Shown in pieces: positions 19,130-56,577 of a stretch of 64,000 nt of DNA (position 1 is the first letter of the stretch; each line of letters starts with the position of its first letter). Location: NCBI RefSeq assembly GCF_000828675.1, contig NZ_AP014510.1:1-64000 (forward strand), written 5' to 3'. The notes under the pieces are model-generated. The model worked only from the letters and a program-made list of their open reading frames with translations, was not told the origin of the DNA and did no database searches. A program made the translations under genes and the position numbers. This stretch comes from Thermotoga profunda AZM34c06 (GTDB lineage: Bacteria > Thermotogota > Thermotogae > Thermotogales > DSM-5069).

Positions 19130-19450
19130 TTGATATTAACAACAACCGAAAAGATTGAAGGGTATGAAATTGTTGAAACATTAGGACTTGTCATGGGTAA
19201 TACAGTTCATTCAAAACACCTTGGTAAAGATATAGCCGCAGCTTTTAAGACACTTGCAGGTGGAGAAATCAAATCTTACACAGAACTTTTGACAGAAGCG
19301 AGAAATATTGCCATGCAAAGAATGATAGCCGAAGCGGAGAAGCTTGGAGCAGATGCCATCGTGAGTATTCGTTTTGGTAGTTCTTCAATCATGCAATCTG
19401 CTGCTGAAGTGCTTGCTTACGGAACAGCTGTGAAGATCAAGAAGATATAG
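19130..19450 (+). CDS. YbjQ/UPF0145 family protein
   Basis: This 106-residue protein matches the YbjQ (UPF0145, heavy-metal-binding-domain-like) family. The N-terminal TTEKIEGYEIVETLGLVMGNTV and the later LLTEARNIAMQRMIAEAEKLGADAIV are its signatures. The family forms homopentamers; no firm function is known. TTG at 19130 is chosen because GGAGGTG ends 6 bases upstream; a GTG at 19121 is part of the ribosome site. Its last 14 bases overlap the end of the convergent lysA gene, with no terminator between them. Confidence 0.9.
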   Translation: MILTTTEKIEGYEIVETLGLVMGNTVHSKHLGKDIAAAFKTLAGGEIKSYTELLTEARNIAMQRMIAEAEKLGADAIVSIRFGSSSIMQSAAEVLAYGTAVKIKKI

Positions 19451-20585
19451 ACAATTTTTCGCCGTCCCATATGATCTCTTTTGGTTTAGGTATTAGATTG
19501 TAATCAGATGCCATGGCATAACCATAAGCTCCAACATCGCATATGGCTACGAATTCACCTTCCTTTGGTTCTGCCATGGTATATGATTTTCTGAAAGTGT
19601 CGGCACTTTCACAAATTGGTCCAACGACATCTGCCTTGATTTTCTTTCTGTTCTTTACATCATACAATGGTATTATTCTATGCTTTGCTCCATAGAGTGC
19701 AGGTCTTATGAGATGGGTCATACCTGTATCAAGCATTATGAAAATCTTGCTGGAAGTTCTCTTTATATATTCAACCTTCGCTACTAAGTAAGCTGAAGGA
19801 GCGACGATCCATCGACCAAGTTCCAAGACAATCGTTGAGCCAAATTCTTTCAAAAGTGGGAAAATTTTCTTTTTGTATTCTTCTAAGTCAAGAACTTTGC
19901 CATTGCCATAATCTATACCCCAGCCGCCACCAAGATTCAACACACTCAACTCCAAATCCATCGATTTCGCAAAATATTTTATAGAGACAACCGCTTCTAA
20001 ATATGGCTCTACTTCGGTTATCTGCGAGCCTATATGGCAGTGAAGACCTATGAGATCAAGCATTTTGTTGGATTTTATTCGTTCGATCATCTTGGTTGCT
20101 GTATCAAAATCAACGCCGAATTTATTTTCCTTCAGACCCGTCGCGATATGACGATGCGTCTTTGCATCGACATCTGGATTAACTCTGATTGATACTCTCG
20201 TTGGTTTTGAGAGGATTTTTTCAAGTCTTAAGAGCTCTTCATAACTATCGAGATTTATGGAAAAGACACCATCATTTACATATTGTTGTAGCTCTTCTCT
20301 CTTTTTGCAATTACCATTGACGATTATTCTATCTGGTGTAAAACCAACCGATCGAACTTGTTTATATTCCCCAAAAGAGACAACATCAACCATGATGTTT
20401 TTCTTCTCAAGAACACTGAGAATATCCTTGTTGAAATTCGCCTTCACAGCATAGGCGAGACGAAAATCAAAATCTTTGAACATCTCTTTTAGAATAGAAA
20501 GTCTATGGTGAATAAAGGGAAGATCATAAACATAGATAGGAGTTCCGAAGGACTCTGCAGCCTTAACAAGTATCTGAGAATCCAC
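19437..20585 (-). CDS. lysA: diaminopimelate decarboxylase
   Basis: This PLP enzyme of fold type III performs the last step of lysine synthesis, converting meso-diaminopimelate to lysine. The 382-residue length is normal. The PLP lysine lies in FRLAYAVKANFNK near residue 51. The phosphate-binding glycine motif is LNLGGGWGIDYG, the HIGSQ motif is present, and the second active-site cysteine is in GPICESAD. GTG at 20585 is chosen because GAGAGGTG lies just upstream. It follows trpZ closely and is probably the last gene of the Trp-leader-controlled operon, an unusual partner for an aromatic amino acid transporter. The 3' end overlaps ybjQ by 14 bp. Confidence 0.95.
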   Translation of the reverse strand: MDSQILVKAAESFGTPIYVYDLPFIHHRLSILKEMFKDFDFRLAYAVKANFNKDILSVLEKKNIMVDVVSFGEYKQVRSVGFTPDRIIVNGNCKKREELQQYVNDGVFSINLDSYEELLRLEKILSKPTRVSIRVNPDVDAKTHRHIATGLKENKFGVDFDTATKMIERIKSNKMLDLIGLHCHIGSQITEVEPYLEAVVSIKYFAKSMDLELSVLNLGGGWGIDYGNGKVLDLEEYKKKIFPLLKEFGSTIVLELGRWIVAPSAYLVAKVEYIKRTSSKIFIMLDTGMTHLIRPALYGAKHRIIPLYDVKNRKKIKADVVGPICESADTFRKSYTMAEPKEGEFVAICDVGAYGYAMASDYNLIPKPKEIIWDGEKLSISS

Positions 20586-20619
20586 AAAATCACCTCTCAA
20601 CTGAGTAAGAATTAACACT

Positions 20620-21366
20620 CTATGTTGTTGTAAACACTGTAGATCTTATCATGGCTTTCAGTTGGGAGGCCATTATTTTTTGTTGCGATTTGTCTATTTT
20701 TGTGCAAATTTTTCCATCCTCCATCACTATAACACTGCTACCGAATTGCTCTGCAAGCATCATATCATGGGTGATCATGACGATCGTAGTGCCAAGATCT
20801 CTGTTTATCTTATCGGTCAACTCCATTATCTTTTCCGTGCTCTTTGGATCGAGCGCTGCCGTGTGCTCATCTAAAAGTAATAACTTGGGATTCGAAGAGA
20901 CAGCCATCACTATTGCAAGTGCTTGCTTTTGACCGCCGGACAACTTGGATGCCTTTCTCTTCAGAGTCTCTTCAAGACCCATTCCTGTGGATTTCAAAAG
21001 ATCTATACTTTTCGAGTGAATTCTGCCAAAGCCAAAACCTCTTATACCCTTTTTACTCGCGAGTATGAGATTTTCTTCTACCGTTAGATTTGGAAACACA
21101 CCTTGGTTTGGATCTTGGCAAACTATGCTTGTCTTTTTGAATATTTTCTCAGACACAACTGGCATTCCAAGGATCTTACAAGTGCCCTGAATTGGTTTCA
21201 CATCACCAACGAGTAACTTCAAAAGCGTAGACTTTCCCGCACCATTCGATCCAACAACGACCAGAAATTCCCCGTCATTTACCTTGAGAGAAACATTTTT
21301 CAAAGCGATTTTTTCATCGAGTGTTCCTTTATTGTAGATAACTGTCACATTCTCAATATCTATCAT
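20620..21366 (-). CDS. trpZ: ABC transporter ATP-binding protein, TrpZ-like
   Basis: This 248-residue ATPase has Walker A GSNGAGKSTLL near residue 39, signature KLSGGQKQAL near 142, Walker B LLLLDEHTAALDP near 162 and switch histidine MITHDM. The alanine-rich HTAALDP version is typical of ATPases that work with TrpX-type (PF04392) binding proteins. The ATG start overlaps the permease stop by 4 bp. With TrpX and TrpY it forms an importer, probably of tryptophan or another aromatic compound. It is regulated by the Trp leader upstream of trpX. Confidence 0.9.
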   Translation of the reverse strand: MIDIENVTVIYNKGTLDEKIALKNVSLKVNDGEFLVVVGSNGAGKSTLLKLLVGDVKPIQGTCKILGMPVVSEKIFKKTSIVCQDPNQGVFPNLTVEENLILASKKGIRGFGFGRIHSKSIDLLKSTGMGLEETLKRKASKLSGGQKQALAIVMAVSSNPKLLLLDEHTAALDPKSTEKIMELTDKINRDLGTTIVMITHDMMLAEQFGSSVIVMEDGKICTKIDKSQQKIMASQLKAMIRSTVFTTT

Positions 21367-22325
21367 ATGGTCACCTCGCTTTTCTTGAATCTTCTTACAG
21401 CAATCACAGCTACAACAAACAGTGCGGTGAGTAATTTCATGTCACTTGGTTTAAAACCGATGCGATATCCATACTTCATTGCAAATGTTAATAAGAATTG
21501 ATATAGCAATGCTCCAACAATTGGAAAAATAACACCATACATTGGTTCGTGCGAACCAAATACAATCTCTCCAAGAATCACAGCTGCGAGACAAACGACA
21601 ACCGTTCCTATACCCATATTCACATCTGCAAAACCACTATACATTGAAAATAAAGCGCCAGAGAACCCTGCAAAGATATTGCACATGATCAATCCAACAT
21701 AGGCAAATAAATCGGGATTGACACCTAAAACCTTCACAGCAAAGCGATTTCTACCATACCCTCGAAGCATCGTACCAAATTCAGTCCTGAGAAAGAGTGA
21801 AACTACGACAATCGACAAGAAAACGATCGCGCAGATGATAACAAGATCATGACCATCACCGAGATTGGTGAATGGAATCTTCACAGCCCTTAATCCACTG
21901 GCTTCAAAGCTTGCGCTTGGTGATCCACCAAGTATGTCATCTAAGGGTGTTTTTCCGACTATCTGCTCATAACTCATGATCTTTCCTGTATCGAACTTTG
22001 GTACAGGCAAATTTGGCGCATTCATAACTCTAATACTCAAAGAATAAAGACCCGTCATAACCATAATTGAAGCGAGTAAAGAATTGATTCTGAATCTTGT
22101 CGTTATAAATGCAACAACAGCGCCGGCAGCACCGGCGGCAAGTACAGCTATAAAGGTTGAAAAGACCCACCCATGACCGGAATGAAGGAGGACGACCGCG
22201 ACGGCTCCTCCAAGGACATAGGAGCCATCCGGCGTCAAATCAGGAAGATCAACGAGGCGGAATGATATATATACACCCATGGCGGCCAAAGATAGCAAAA
22301 GTCCCTGCTCAATTATCGGAATCAT
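21363..22325 (-). CDS. trpY: ABC transporter permease, TrpY-like
   Basis: This 320-residue membrane protein has eight to ten hydrophobic segments and belongs to the branched-chain/sugar-type permease family (BPD_transp_2). The N-terminal FRLVDLPDLTPDGSYVLGGA and the central GYGRNRFAVKVLGVNP loop are typical of permeases linked to TrpX proteins. It overlaps trpX and trpZ by 4 bp each, so the three are translationally coupled. It forms the channel for the compound delivered by TrpX. Confidence 0.9.
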   Translation of the reverse strand: MIPIIEQGLLLSLAAMGVYISFRLVDLPDLTPDGSYVLGGAVAVVLLHSGHGWVFSTFIAVLAAGAAGAVVAFITTRFRINSLLASIMVMTGLYSLSIRVMNAPNLPVPKFDTGKIMSYEQIVGKTPLDDILGGSPSASFEASGLRAVKIPFTNLGDGHDLVIICAIVFLSIVVVSLFLRTEFGTMLRGYGRNRFAVKVLGVNPDLFAYVGLIMCNIFAGFSGALFSMYSGFADVNMGIGTVVVCLAAVILGEIVFGSHEPMYGVIFPIVGALLYQFLLTFAMKYGYRIGFKPSDMKLLTALFVVAVIAVRRFKKSEVTI

Positions 22326-23293
22326 TTAGACACCTCTTTACCATCTTTGACTACGATATTGGCTCTCTCGAGAAGGTCAGATGGTATCTCAACATTGAGT
22401 TGTTTGGCAATATCGAGATTTATGTATAAAACAAGCGAATCCGGTCCGACTACATGAGATTCAAGATCACTTGCTTTCGCTCCTTTGAGCAAAGCAACCA
22501 GTAACTGGCCCGTTTCCACACCAACCTGGAAGTAATTAAAGCCAAAGCCAACCACGCCACCACCACGTGCTATGTCTATGTCAGCTGCGACTATTGGCTT
22601 TTTCAATCTCAAAGCCGCACTTCCAATAGCCTCAATCGAAGAAGCAGCGGTGTTGTCAGTTCCTATGTATAGAACATCTACATTGGGACCTATACTGTTG
22701 AGAGCTGTTATCATTTCACTTGGAGAAGTTCCTGGAATGTCAACCACAGTCATCTCAAGAGATGGTGCGGCAGATTTGGCGATATTAGTCAAAGTGACAG
22801 AATTGGCTTCACCAGGATTGTAGATTACACCGACTTTCTTAGCGTTTGGAAAGATTTTTTTAATCAACCTAAGTTGAGTTGCCACTGGGACCATATCTGA
22901 AACTCCAACAACATTTGAATCATTCTTTCCAAGCTGTTTGATCAAACCAGCGCCCACAGGATCGGTAACGGCAGAAAAAATCACAGGTCTATCGCTGATT
23001 GCCTGAACACAAGCTTGAGCCGATGGAGTCGCAATAGCTACCACAAAATCAACTTTTTCTGTCGCAAACTTTTTTGCAATTGTCACAGCATTTTGCATAC
23101 TTCCTTGTGCGTTTTGCCTATCAATAATGACATCTTGACCAACCTTGAATCCTGAATCCTCAAGGGCTTTGACGATTCCATCGAAAACTGCGTTTAATGC
23201 TGGATGATCCACAATTTGAGTTATGCCAACTCTAACAGCACCAAAACTAATAACAGAAAGAACCAAAACTACAGCGGCTATCAACCTTTTCAT
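22322..23293 (-). CDS. trpX: ABC transporter substrate-binding protein, TrpX family
   Basis: This 323-residue binding protein has a cleaved signal peptide (residues 1-18) and the ABC_sub_bind (PF04392) fold, with RVGITQIVDHPALNAVFDGI at the N terminus, FVVAIATPSAQACVQA near 85 and VGVIYNPGEANSVTL near 165. Family members linked to Trp-controlled genes are predicted to bind tryptophan or other aromatics. The leader peptide with two adjacent Trp codons just upstream supports that assignment here. The ATG is preceded by GGGGGTGTTGG. Confidence 0.9.
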   Translation of the reverse strand: MKRLIAAVVLVLSVISFGAVRVGITQIVDHPALNAVFDGIVKALEDSGFKVGQDVIIDRQNAQGSMQNAVTIAKKFATEKVDFVVAIATPSAQACVQAISDRPVIFSAVTDPVGAGLIKQLGKNDSNVVGVSDMVPVATQLRLIKKIFPNAKKVGVIYNPGEANSVTLTNIAKSAAPSLEMTVVDIPGTSPSEMITALNSIGPNVDVLYIGTDNTAASSIEAIGSAALRLKKPIVAADIDIARGGGVVGFGFNYFQVGVETGQLLVALLKGAKASDLESHVVGPDSLVLYINLDIAKQLNVEIPSDLLERANIVVKDGKEVSK

Positions 23294-23319: not shown

Positions 23320-23352
23320 AAAAAAAGAGGGCATCCTTTTTGGATGCCCTCT
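23320..23352 (-). terminator. leader terminator of the trpXYZ-lysA attenuator
   Basis: Read on the minus strand, AGAGGGCATCC (23352-23342) pairs with GGATGCCCTCT (23336-23326) over 11 bp around a 5-base loop, followed by seven T. It lies between the leader peptide and trpX. Its 5' arm can instead pair with ATGCCCTCTTCC in the leader (23424-23413). Confidence 0.93.
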
Positions 23353-23382
23353 TCCTTTACCTTTTTTTGTAGATTCCCCTGT

Positions 23383-23493
23383 TTATGTACCAAGTGGTAT
23401 TAGGGGAATCTCGGAAGAGGGCATTCCCCTAAACCACCAATAAGCGTATGAAAATTGAGCCACCTTTTGATTTAGAAATATCTCACGCTTCAC
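23383..23493 (-). CDS. 36-residue leader peptide with tandem Trp codons (attenuator peptide)
   Basis: GTG at 23493 follows GGAGG by 7 bases and opens 36 codons ending in TAA at 23383. Codons 14-21 read F-S-Y-A-Y-W-W-F, with the two TGG codons at 23439-23434. Downstream, ATGCCCTCTTCC (23424-23413) can pair with GGAAGAGGGCAT at the foot of the terminator, forming an antiterminator. GATTCCCCT (23410-23402) can pair with AGGGGAATC (23380-23372) inside it. The alternative pairing AGGGGAAT/ATTCCCCT (23430-23423 with 23409-23402) would trap the antiterminator strand in a loop. This is the layout of classical trp-type attenuation, in which ribosome stalling at Trp codons favours read-through. Confidence 0.88.
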   Translation of the reverse strand: MKREIFLNQKVAQFSYAYWWFRGMPSSEIPLIPLGT

Positions 23494-23524
23494 ACGAAAT
23501 CCTCCAAGAATTTTTATTGACCAC

Positions 23525-23554
23525 ATTATACCAAAATATCTATTCTCATGTCAA
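23525..23554 (-). promoter_or_regulatory. consensus promoter of the trpXYZ-lysA operon
   Basis: On the minus strand TTGACA (23554-23549) and TATAAT (23530-23525) are separated by 18 bp, a full-consensus sigma-70-type promoter. The start would be near 23518, about 25 bases before the leader peptide. Confidence 0.93.
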
Positions 23555-23647
23555 GAGCCAAATAGATCACCACAAAAATCTGCGTTGAAAACACATCAAA
23601 AAATGCAAAAATATAACGTAGAAAAAACTGAAGGAGGTTCTCAAAAA

Positions 23648-24220
23648 ATGAGAAAGGTTGGAGATATCAAAATACTGTTTTCAGATGTGGATATGAGAAT
23701 AAAAAAGGGGAGAAAAATACTATTTTCTCGAGACAGTCGATGCCTACAAGACCTGATAGGATTAATCCAATTACAAAAACACAAAACACTCATCATGTGG
23801 TCATTGGATTGTGCAAAAACTATTTTGGAACAATTTGAAGCAAAATATCCCAATGAACAAAGACCGCGGATATGTTTGGAATTTTGTAGCAAGTGGGCTA
23901 TGGGTAAAATAAAAATGCCTGTAGCAAGACAGGTTATTTTAGCAGTACATGAACTCGCAAAAGAAATTGAGACTAAAGATAGAGAATACAGTTACTTGTG
24001 TCGCGCAATTGGTCATGCTGGAGCTACGGTACACACAAAAAAACATGCTTTGGGTTTGCCGATTTACGAACTGACTGCGCTTGTTTTGAAGTATGGAAAA
24101 GAAAACTTTTATGAACCGATTGTCCAGAGAATAGACAATTACTATCAACGTTTGCTGTATTGGCAAAAGAATATAGATAATTTTGATCTTGAGTGGGCAA
24201 ATTTTCTGTTGAGAGATTAG
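23648..24220 (+). CDS. Imm5-like putative immunity protein
   Basis: This 190-residue mostly helical protein has no signal peptide. It resembles the putative immunity proteins of the Imm5 family seen in Firmicutes. The conserved block is LCRAIGHAGATVHTKKHALG followed by LPIYELTALV (residues about 118-147), with an earlier LEFCSKWAMGKIKMPVARQ. ATG at 23648 is chosen because AAGGAGG stands 8 bases upstream. No toxin gene accompanies it, so it is an orphan, and a role outside toxin immunity is possible. Its TAG stop coincides with the first bases of the intergenic repeat at 24218-24423. Confidence 0.6.
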   Translation: MRKVGDIKILFSDVDMRIKKGRKILFSRDSRCLQDLIGLIQLQKHKTLIMWSLDCAKTILEQFEAKYPNEQRPRICLEFCSKWAMGKIKMPVARQVILAVHELAKEIETKDREYSYLCRAIGHAGATVHTKKHALGLPIYELTALVLKYGKENFYEPIVQRIDNYYQRLLYWQKNIDNFDLEWANFLLRD

Positions 24221-56450: not shown

Positions 56451-56464
56451 AATTTGATTTTTCA

Positions 56465-56555
56465 CTTGCTCCCTACGCCGGCATTACCCGGATCAGGTTC
56501 AAGGGTCGAGGACTTCCGTCCTCCTCTCAGCCTCGGATTAGAAGCTCCCCTGCAG
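56465..56555 (-). promoter_or_regulatory. TPP riboswitch (THI element)
   Basis: Read on the minus strand, the aptamer has GCAGGGGAGCTTC, the CTGAGAGG core, a variable stem GGACGGAAGTCC, and the conserved ACCCTTGAACCTGATCCGGG with TAATGCCGGCGTAGGGAGC. This is the full THI-box consensus. High TPP should favour the following terminator and shut off thiBP. Confidence 0.97.
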
Positions 56556-56577
56556 ATATATTCACTTGGCCATTTTT

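Follow-up and report, generated by a model that had tools for sequence, protein, structure and literature searches.

The DNA analysed here (the window) is a stretch of 64,000 nucleotides from Thermotoga profunda AZM34c06. Its minus strand carries an operon for the substrate-binding protein, permease and ATPase of an ABC importer, ending in lysA and preceded by a leader region with its own promoter, a short open reading frame and a series of sequences (S1 to S6) that can pair in alternative ways (Table 1). The leader peptide, in the copy carried by the window, is VKREIFLNQKVAQFSYAYWWFRGMPSSEIPLIPLGT. All pairings and coordinates were re-derived base by base from the window sequence. The consensus promoter, the 36-codon leader with its Y-A-Y-W-W motif, the antiterminator, the nested stem and the competing pairing described in a first-pass annotation were all recovered, as was the terminator, the stem of which proved to have 12 Watson-Crick pairs rather than the 11 originally counted.

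Table 1. Features of the leader and operon, with positions in the window; pairing partners are listed after the elements they involve.
Feature	Position	Strand	Remarks
Sigma-70 promoter TTGACA-18-TATAAT	23525..23554	-	12/12 consensus match, from sequence; -35 box TTGACA 23554-23549, TATAAT 23530-23525, spacer 18 nt
Shine-Dalgarno GGAGG of leader ORF	23501..23505	-	From sequence
Leader peptide ORF	23383..23493	-	GTG 23493 to TAA 23383, 36 codons
Regulatory codon run F-S-Y-A-Y-W-W-F	23431..23454	-	Immediately 5' of the point from which the antiterminator strand becomes occluded
S1, protector strand	23423..23438	-	Both TGG codons lie within it; its core, 23430-23423, is the partner of S3
S2, antiterminator 5' strand	23413..23424	-	12/12 pairs with S5, and covariation
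S3	23393..23410	-	Partner of S1 (terminator state) or S4 (antiterminator state)
S4, partner of S3 in nested stem	23372..23380	-	9/9 pairs; a ribosome at the stop codon would lie over it
S5, terminator 5' arm and antiterminator 3' strand	23344..23355	-	
Intrinsic terminator hairpin (S5:S6) and T tract	23320..23353	-	S6 is the 3' arm; 12 Watson-Crick pairs, 23353-23342 with 23336-23325; T's to 23320
Antiterminator S2:S5		-	23424-23413 with 23355-23344, 12/12 pairs
Nested stem S3:S4		-	23410-23402 with 23380-23372, 9/9 pairs
Competitor S1:S3, core		-	23430-23423 with 23409-23402, 8/8 pairs
Competitor S1:S3, predicted fold		-	Lengthened to 23438-23423 with 23409-23393, spanning both Trp codons
trpX-like ABC substrate-binding protein (PF04392)	22322..23293	-	ATG at 23293
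ABC permease (PF02653), trpY-like	21363..22325	-	
ABC ATPase (PF00005), trpZ-like	20620..21366	-	
lysA, diaminopimelate decarboxylase	19437..20618	-	Closes the operon; scores above the TIGR01048 cut-off

Two arrangements of these elements are distinguished below. In the terminator state S1:S3 is closed with S2 inside it, and S5:S6 is formed; in the antiterminator state S2:S5 is formed around S3:S4. A scan with a terminator consensus showed only the plus-strand face of the terminator palindrome, probably because pairing of the minus-strand stem continues into the T tract. A screen of the 64-kb window on both strands, which asked for a short ORF with a Shine-Dalgarno sequence and an aromatic run, together with a terminator that has an antiterminator upstream of it, returned only this one leader. 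Each of the 47 importer gene copies described below shows the same arrangement, and it exceeds what is expected by chance. Adjoining the leader promoter is a divergent plus-strand gene (23585-24220), the product of which is a putative immunity protein resembling Imm-5 (PF21805, E 1.7e-39). The window also contains a TPP riboswitch on the minus strand (RF00059, 75.5 bits, 56453-56561).

The window binding protein matches PF04392 above the gathering score and is homologous to solved aromatic amino acid binders. Among the solved members of this family, 3LKV binds Phe, 6HNI binds Tyr and 3LFT binds Trp, and two pocket residues have been proposed as determinants of specificity (PMC6816091). The first-pass annotation referred to the gene as trpX, a reading that needs revision. 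The protein scores 248.7 bits against the curated TrpX model NF041285, below the cut-off of 390, and its two pocket positions are occupied by Asp and Tyr, as in the Tyr-type, in place of the Ala and Gln of the Trp-type (as in SP1069). From these residues the pocket looks Tyr-type, not Trp-type. The Trp-type Gln is absent from every Thermotogota copy, including those with WWW leaders. On the most economical reading the family would comprise aromatic amino acid importers, with the ligand of the window copy predicted only. In all eight Pseudothermotoga-like operons examined lysA follows the importer genes, and it does so in none of the other operons examined; this lysine/diaminopimelate gene, although tied to an aromatic switch, is only a local passenger.

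We compared the leaders of this importer gene across the phylum, where 47 copies are found in 40 of 103 Thermotogota genomes. As the genomes are related, the counts that follow are not independent. All 47 copies have a leader ORF with an aromatic run, as well as a terminator whose 5' arm is complementary to a strand lying upstream, and each ORF is preceded by a Shine-Dalgarno-like motif of at least four bases. The start codon is ATG in 38 leaders, GTG in 8 and TTG in 1. Position analyses were made on 46 leaders, one copy (C10 of genome G087) being left out because the automatic scan had chosen a second, downstream hairpin; an in-frame TAA suspected in the copies of that genome was merely their normal stop codon. 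Reading frame and aromatic run are conserved in orthologous leaders. Within the run, Trp codons occur in 40 of the 46 leaders, Tyr codons in 42 and Phe codons in 40, and six leaders have no Trp codon at all. Among orthologues, then, the aromatic codons and both alternative stems are kept; the WW pair itself, on which the first-pass annotation had centred, is not universal.

The sequences of S1 to S6 vary between clades, which made tests of pairing possible. In 24 non-redundant leaders the S1:S3 duplex had an energy of -14.2 kcal/mol when strands from the same leader were matched and -9.1 kcal/mol when mismatched, a difference reached in none of 5000 permutations. For S2:S5 the best duplex was taken from anywhere upstream, which avoids selection bias, and the matched value was -19.4 compared with -13.5 for mismatched strands (permutation minimum -16.2). 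In a 14-sequence alignment of one family, the covariation score was 0.280 for S1:S3 plus the terminator (0.170 in shuffles, 0 of 500 as high) and 0.235 for S2:S5 (0.176 in shuffles, 2 of 500), and both scores also exceeded those of slid registers. Within the window's own family the leaders are too conserved, and the variation was insufficient for a covariation test. Across clades, these comparisons indicate that a mutually exclusive antiterminator and intrinsic terminator have been conserved through covariation. A constitutive terminator/antiterminator element without any regulation is an alternative to the predicted regulatory response. Such an element is hard to reconcile with compensatory changes conserved across several families of the phylum and with codons matched to the genes downstream, and we give this explanation almost no credence.

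To relate pairing to translation, we used a partition-function model in which, for each codon k placed in the ribosomal A site, the RNA is occluded as far as 12 nt downstream (an assumed footprint); the modelled pairings are an equilibrium calculation. The antiterminator was available in the model when the A site lay in or before the aromatic run and was lost just past the end of the run. This agrees with the earlier proposal that a stalled ribosome leaves the antiterminator free, which in the occlusion model holds until about the last aromatic codon. Relative to the last aromatic codon, the boundary lay between -1 and +2 in 43 of the 46 leaders analysed. A mean of 4.30 aromatics was counted in the six codons preceding it, compared with 1.26 in shuffled peptides, and none of 2000 shuffles gave a value above 1.81. 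Without a ribosome, S1:S3 formed in 43 of the 46 leaders. Before S5 is made, the expected number of S1:S3 pairs had a median of 10 in ribosome-free RNA; the median was 0 when the ribosome occupied the last aromatic codon and 6 when it had reached the stop codon (12 of the 46 leaders were not evaluable in the stop state). In the window copy S1:S3 formed weakly, with 3.4 expected pairs without a ribosome and 0.6 with a ribosome at the stop codon. This partial formation is the weakest point of the model at this locus, and kinetics must therefore contribute more there.

From the computed parts, their conservation and covariation, the position of the codons and the match between codon identity and gene function, we infer a stalling ribosome, a kinetic decision, a response to each amino acid and the choice of amino acids that the importer carries, and the locus is very probably a ribosome-mediated transcription attenuator, with the availability of charged tRNA for aromatic amino acids as its signal. 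With ample Trp, Tyr and Phe, the ribosome would pass the aromatic run, reach the stop codon and cover S4. S1:S3 would close behind it, hiding S2, so that S5 would pair with S6 and transcription would stop. If one of the aromatic amino acids ran short, the ribosome would stall in the run with S1 covered and S2 free; S3:S4 and S2:S5 would then pair, no terminator would form and the importer would be made. If the leader is not translated, S1:S3 would form and termination is expected. The first-pass proposal of a complete ribosome-stalling attenuator in the Thermotogota, placed over an ABC importer and lysA, is thus supported.

Covariance models built from the importer leaders were run over the 103 Thermotogota genomes, and further upstream regions of trpE were inspected. 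The models also matched other operons. All 13 leaders found before trpE-type genes had Trp-only runs (NWWWHL and NWWWLW, for example), and in several of them the modelled probability of the antiterminator peaked on the Trp codons. In contrast, the 13 leaders of DAHP-synthase/aro type had Tyr-rich or mixed runs such as YYWYF, YYYWF, FFYAYWF and YYYYY, and none was Trp-only; for one of these, in G044, the contig breaks off and the assignment follows the similarity of the leader. The difference (13/13 against 0/13) gives a Fisher p of 2e-7, with shared ancestry as a caveat. Several genomes contain all three leader types (importer, DAHP synthase/aro and trpE), with codons that differ as expected. 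Two of the trpE leaders, in G046 and G084, were weaker cases, in which the Shine-Dalgarno sequence was poorly supported or missing or the modelled pairing was weak. The search detected no such leader at trpE of the Thermotoga-type genomes examined, or at several other trpE or aro genes, and a Phe-only leader before pheA, which would complete the set, was found in none of the loci scanned. Outside the phylum, a search of 81 loci with model R1 gave convincing leaders only in the four Thermotogota loci included; the best score elsewhere, 27.5 bits, came with matches on both strands, a palindrome pattern seen at other hairpins too. Three further observations were made among these loci. A WWW leader with the same terminator/antiterminator form (L178, G047 contig 43, leader ORF 205-313) precedes a gene that would not be expected under a Trp-only switch, its product being a 4Fe-4S protein that has a TIGR04076 domain. 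A possible aromatic leader, GCFWFYY (L234, G049 contig 4, ORF 91-181), lies in the region before an aro gene in a different Thermotogota family. At four trpE leaders (L179, L195, L196 and L213) tandem hairpins with T tracts precede the gene.

Codon identity also differs between copies of the importer binding protein. The leaders of extra copies in G057, G045, G095 and G087 are of Phe-only, Tyr-only, WWW or mixed type. G057 and G045 each have three binding-protein genes with an attenuator of their own (Phe, mixed and Tyr), and permease and ATPase genes follow only the gene with the mixed leader; the Phe-only and Tyr-only attenuated genes at these loci (L141 and L142) have no permease or ATPase of their own. 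The acidic pocket residue, Asp, is present in all 42 copies whose leaders have Tyr codons and also in 2 of the 5 copies with non-Tyr leaders; Phe takes its place in the Phe-only-leader copies of G057 and G045 and in the WWW copy of G095. The two-residue rule separates the Phe-only copies and one WWW copy from those with Tyr-containing leaders, and so offers only partial support for a match between pocket and leader codons.

These comparisons bear on two other readings of the leader. The first is a classical attenuator specific for tryptophan, as the first-pass annotation had it, in which control depends solely on the two TGG codons, placed where stalling works best, and the Tyr and Phe codons are bystanders. 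In the window copy the occlusion model does place WW where the control region is effective, and there is a precedent in the aroR leader of Corynebacterium glutamicum, which has Phe-Tyr-Phe and yet responds only to Phe limitation (PMC11802643). Against this, orthologous importer leaders have Phe-only, Tyr-only or Tyr/Phe-only runs, Trp-only leaders sit before trpE, the pocket is Tyr-type, and the host has no common aromatic pathway. As a general rule the Trp-only reading was rejected once the leaders had been aligned, and for the window locus we regard it as rather unlikely. The second is arrest of the ribosome by a nascent leader peptide that binds an aromatic ligand, as in TnaC, with no part for codon starvation. 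In its favour, the stretch AYAYWWFRG is strongly conserved at the nucleotide level in the window's own family. However, leader peptides diverge widely between clades, only the aromatic content and its position being kept, the overlapping S1 and S2 pairings explain much of the nucleotide constraint, and the association of Trp-only runs with trpE is what starvation sensing predicts. Peptide-mediated arrest therefore seems very unlikely.

The physiology of the host fits a starvation sensor with several inputs. The genome from which the window comes (99.99% complete) has no chorismate-binding enzyme (TrpE), chorismate synthase or prephenate dehydratase, all of which were found in the control genome of T. 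maritima. A host lacking these genes should depend on uptake of Trp, Tyr and Phe, and such dependence fits one switch sensing all three. The first-pass remark that the attenuator controls a transporter rather than synthesis genes is correct for this genome, which lacks them, and does not extend to its relatives, whose trp and aro operons share the switch.

A further explanation would have a metabolite riboswitch or a protein-binding RNA (TRAP-like or T-box-like) control the terminator, with the ORF incidental. The terminator/antiterminator architecture is common to riboswitches, and trpX of Streptococcus suis is under T-box control (PMC9382623). On the other hand, the T-box (RF00230) was detected in none of the 103 Thermotogota genomes. 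No Rfam family matched the leader at the cut-off, the best being Phe_leader with 20.9 bits against a threshold of 55, and Trp_leader (RF00513) gave no match at the gathering score or among the matches listed up to E 10. The conserved letters outside the pairings are chiefly the aromatic codons, and a Shine-Dalgarno motif and start codon accompany 47 of 47 ORFs. We consider an RNA of this kind extremely improbable, and return to the ribosome-mediated attenuator.

Taken over the phylum, we think it reasonably probable that in several Thermotogota lineages a codon-programmed attenuation regulon, comprising importer, DAHP synthase/aro and trp genes, replaces T-boxes, and that leader codons and importer substrate co-evolve copy by copy, the leader peptide serving as a label of transporter specificity. 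If so, the best-known form of bacterial RNA regulation would also govern a regulon in this deep-branching and mostly thermophilic phylum, in which no T-box was found. The paralogous binding proteins in one cluster, with their own leaders of Phe, Tyr or mixed codons, would be a natural codon-swap experiment, and the ligand of an uncharacterised importer could be predicted from its leader, which would give Phe for the copies with FAFAF and Tyr for those with YAYY. We found no description of this regulon in the literature searched, and earlier prediction of some sites is possible: Vitreschak et al. (2004) reportedly mention Thermotogales, and priority for some sites may lie there. What appears to be new is the multivalent Phe/Tyr/Trp leader of an importer, the nested architecture and the gene-matched swapping of codons between paralogues across the phylum.

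Ribosome-mediated attenuation itself is classical. The enteric trp, pheA and his attenuators (TrpL, PheL and HisL) likewise have a leader ORF with regulatory codons, a decision set by ribosome position, and mutually exclusive protector, antiterminator and terminator pairings. The Thermotogota leader differs from them in its phylum, in having codons for three amino acids and in its importer target. It also differs in structure, as the antiterminator strand lies inside the protector hairpin and the antiterminator encloses the nested stem S3:S4. Multivalent leaders are known from the ilvGMEDA and thr attenuators of E. coli, in which one leader senses several amino acids; the Thermotogota leader is likewise multivalent, but for aromatic amino acids and with a transporter as target. 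The nearest likeness to the set of attenuators is in C. glutamicum, where a mixed aromatic leader over DAHP synthase (aroR-aroF, Phe-Tyr-Phe) and a trpL leader with Trp codons over the trp operon are already known as a pair in one genome (Neshat et al. 2014, as reviewed in PMC11802643). The Thermotogota also attenuate importers and individual binding-protein copies, and their mixed leaders include Trp codons. Finally, the homologous streptococcal importer, trpXYZ, is controlled by a tryptophan T-box (PMC9382623), in which tRNA charging is likewise converted into a decision at a terminator; the Thermotogota would reach that decision with a ribosome on a leader ORF instead of by direct binding of tRNA.
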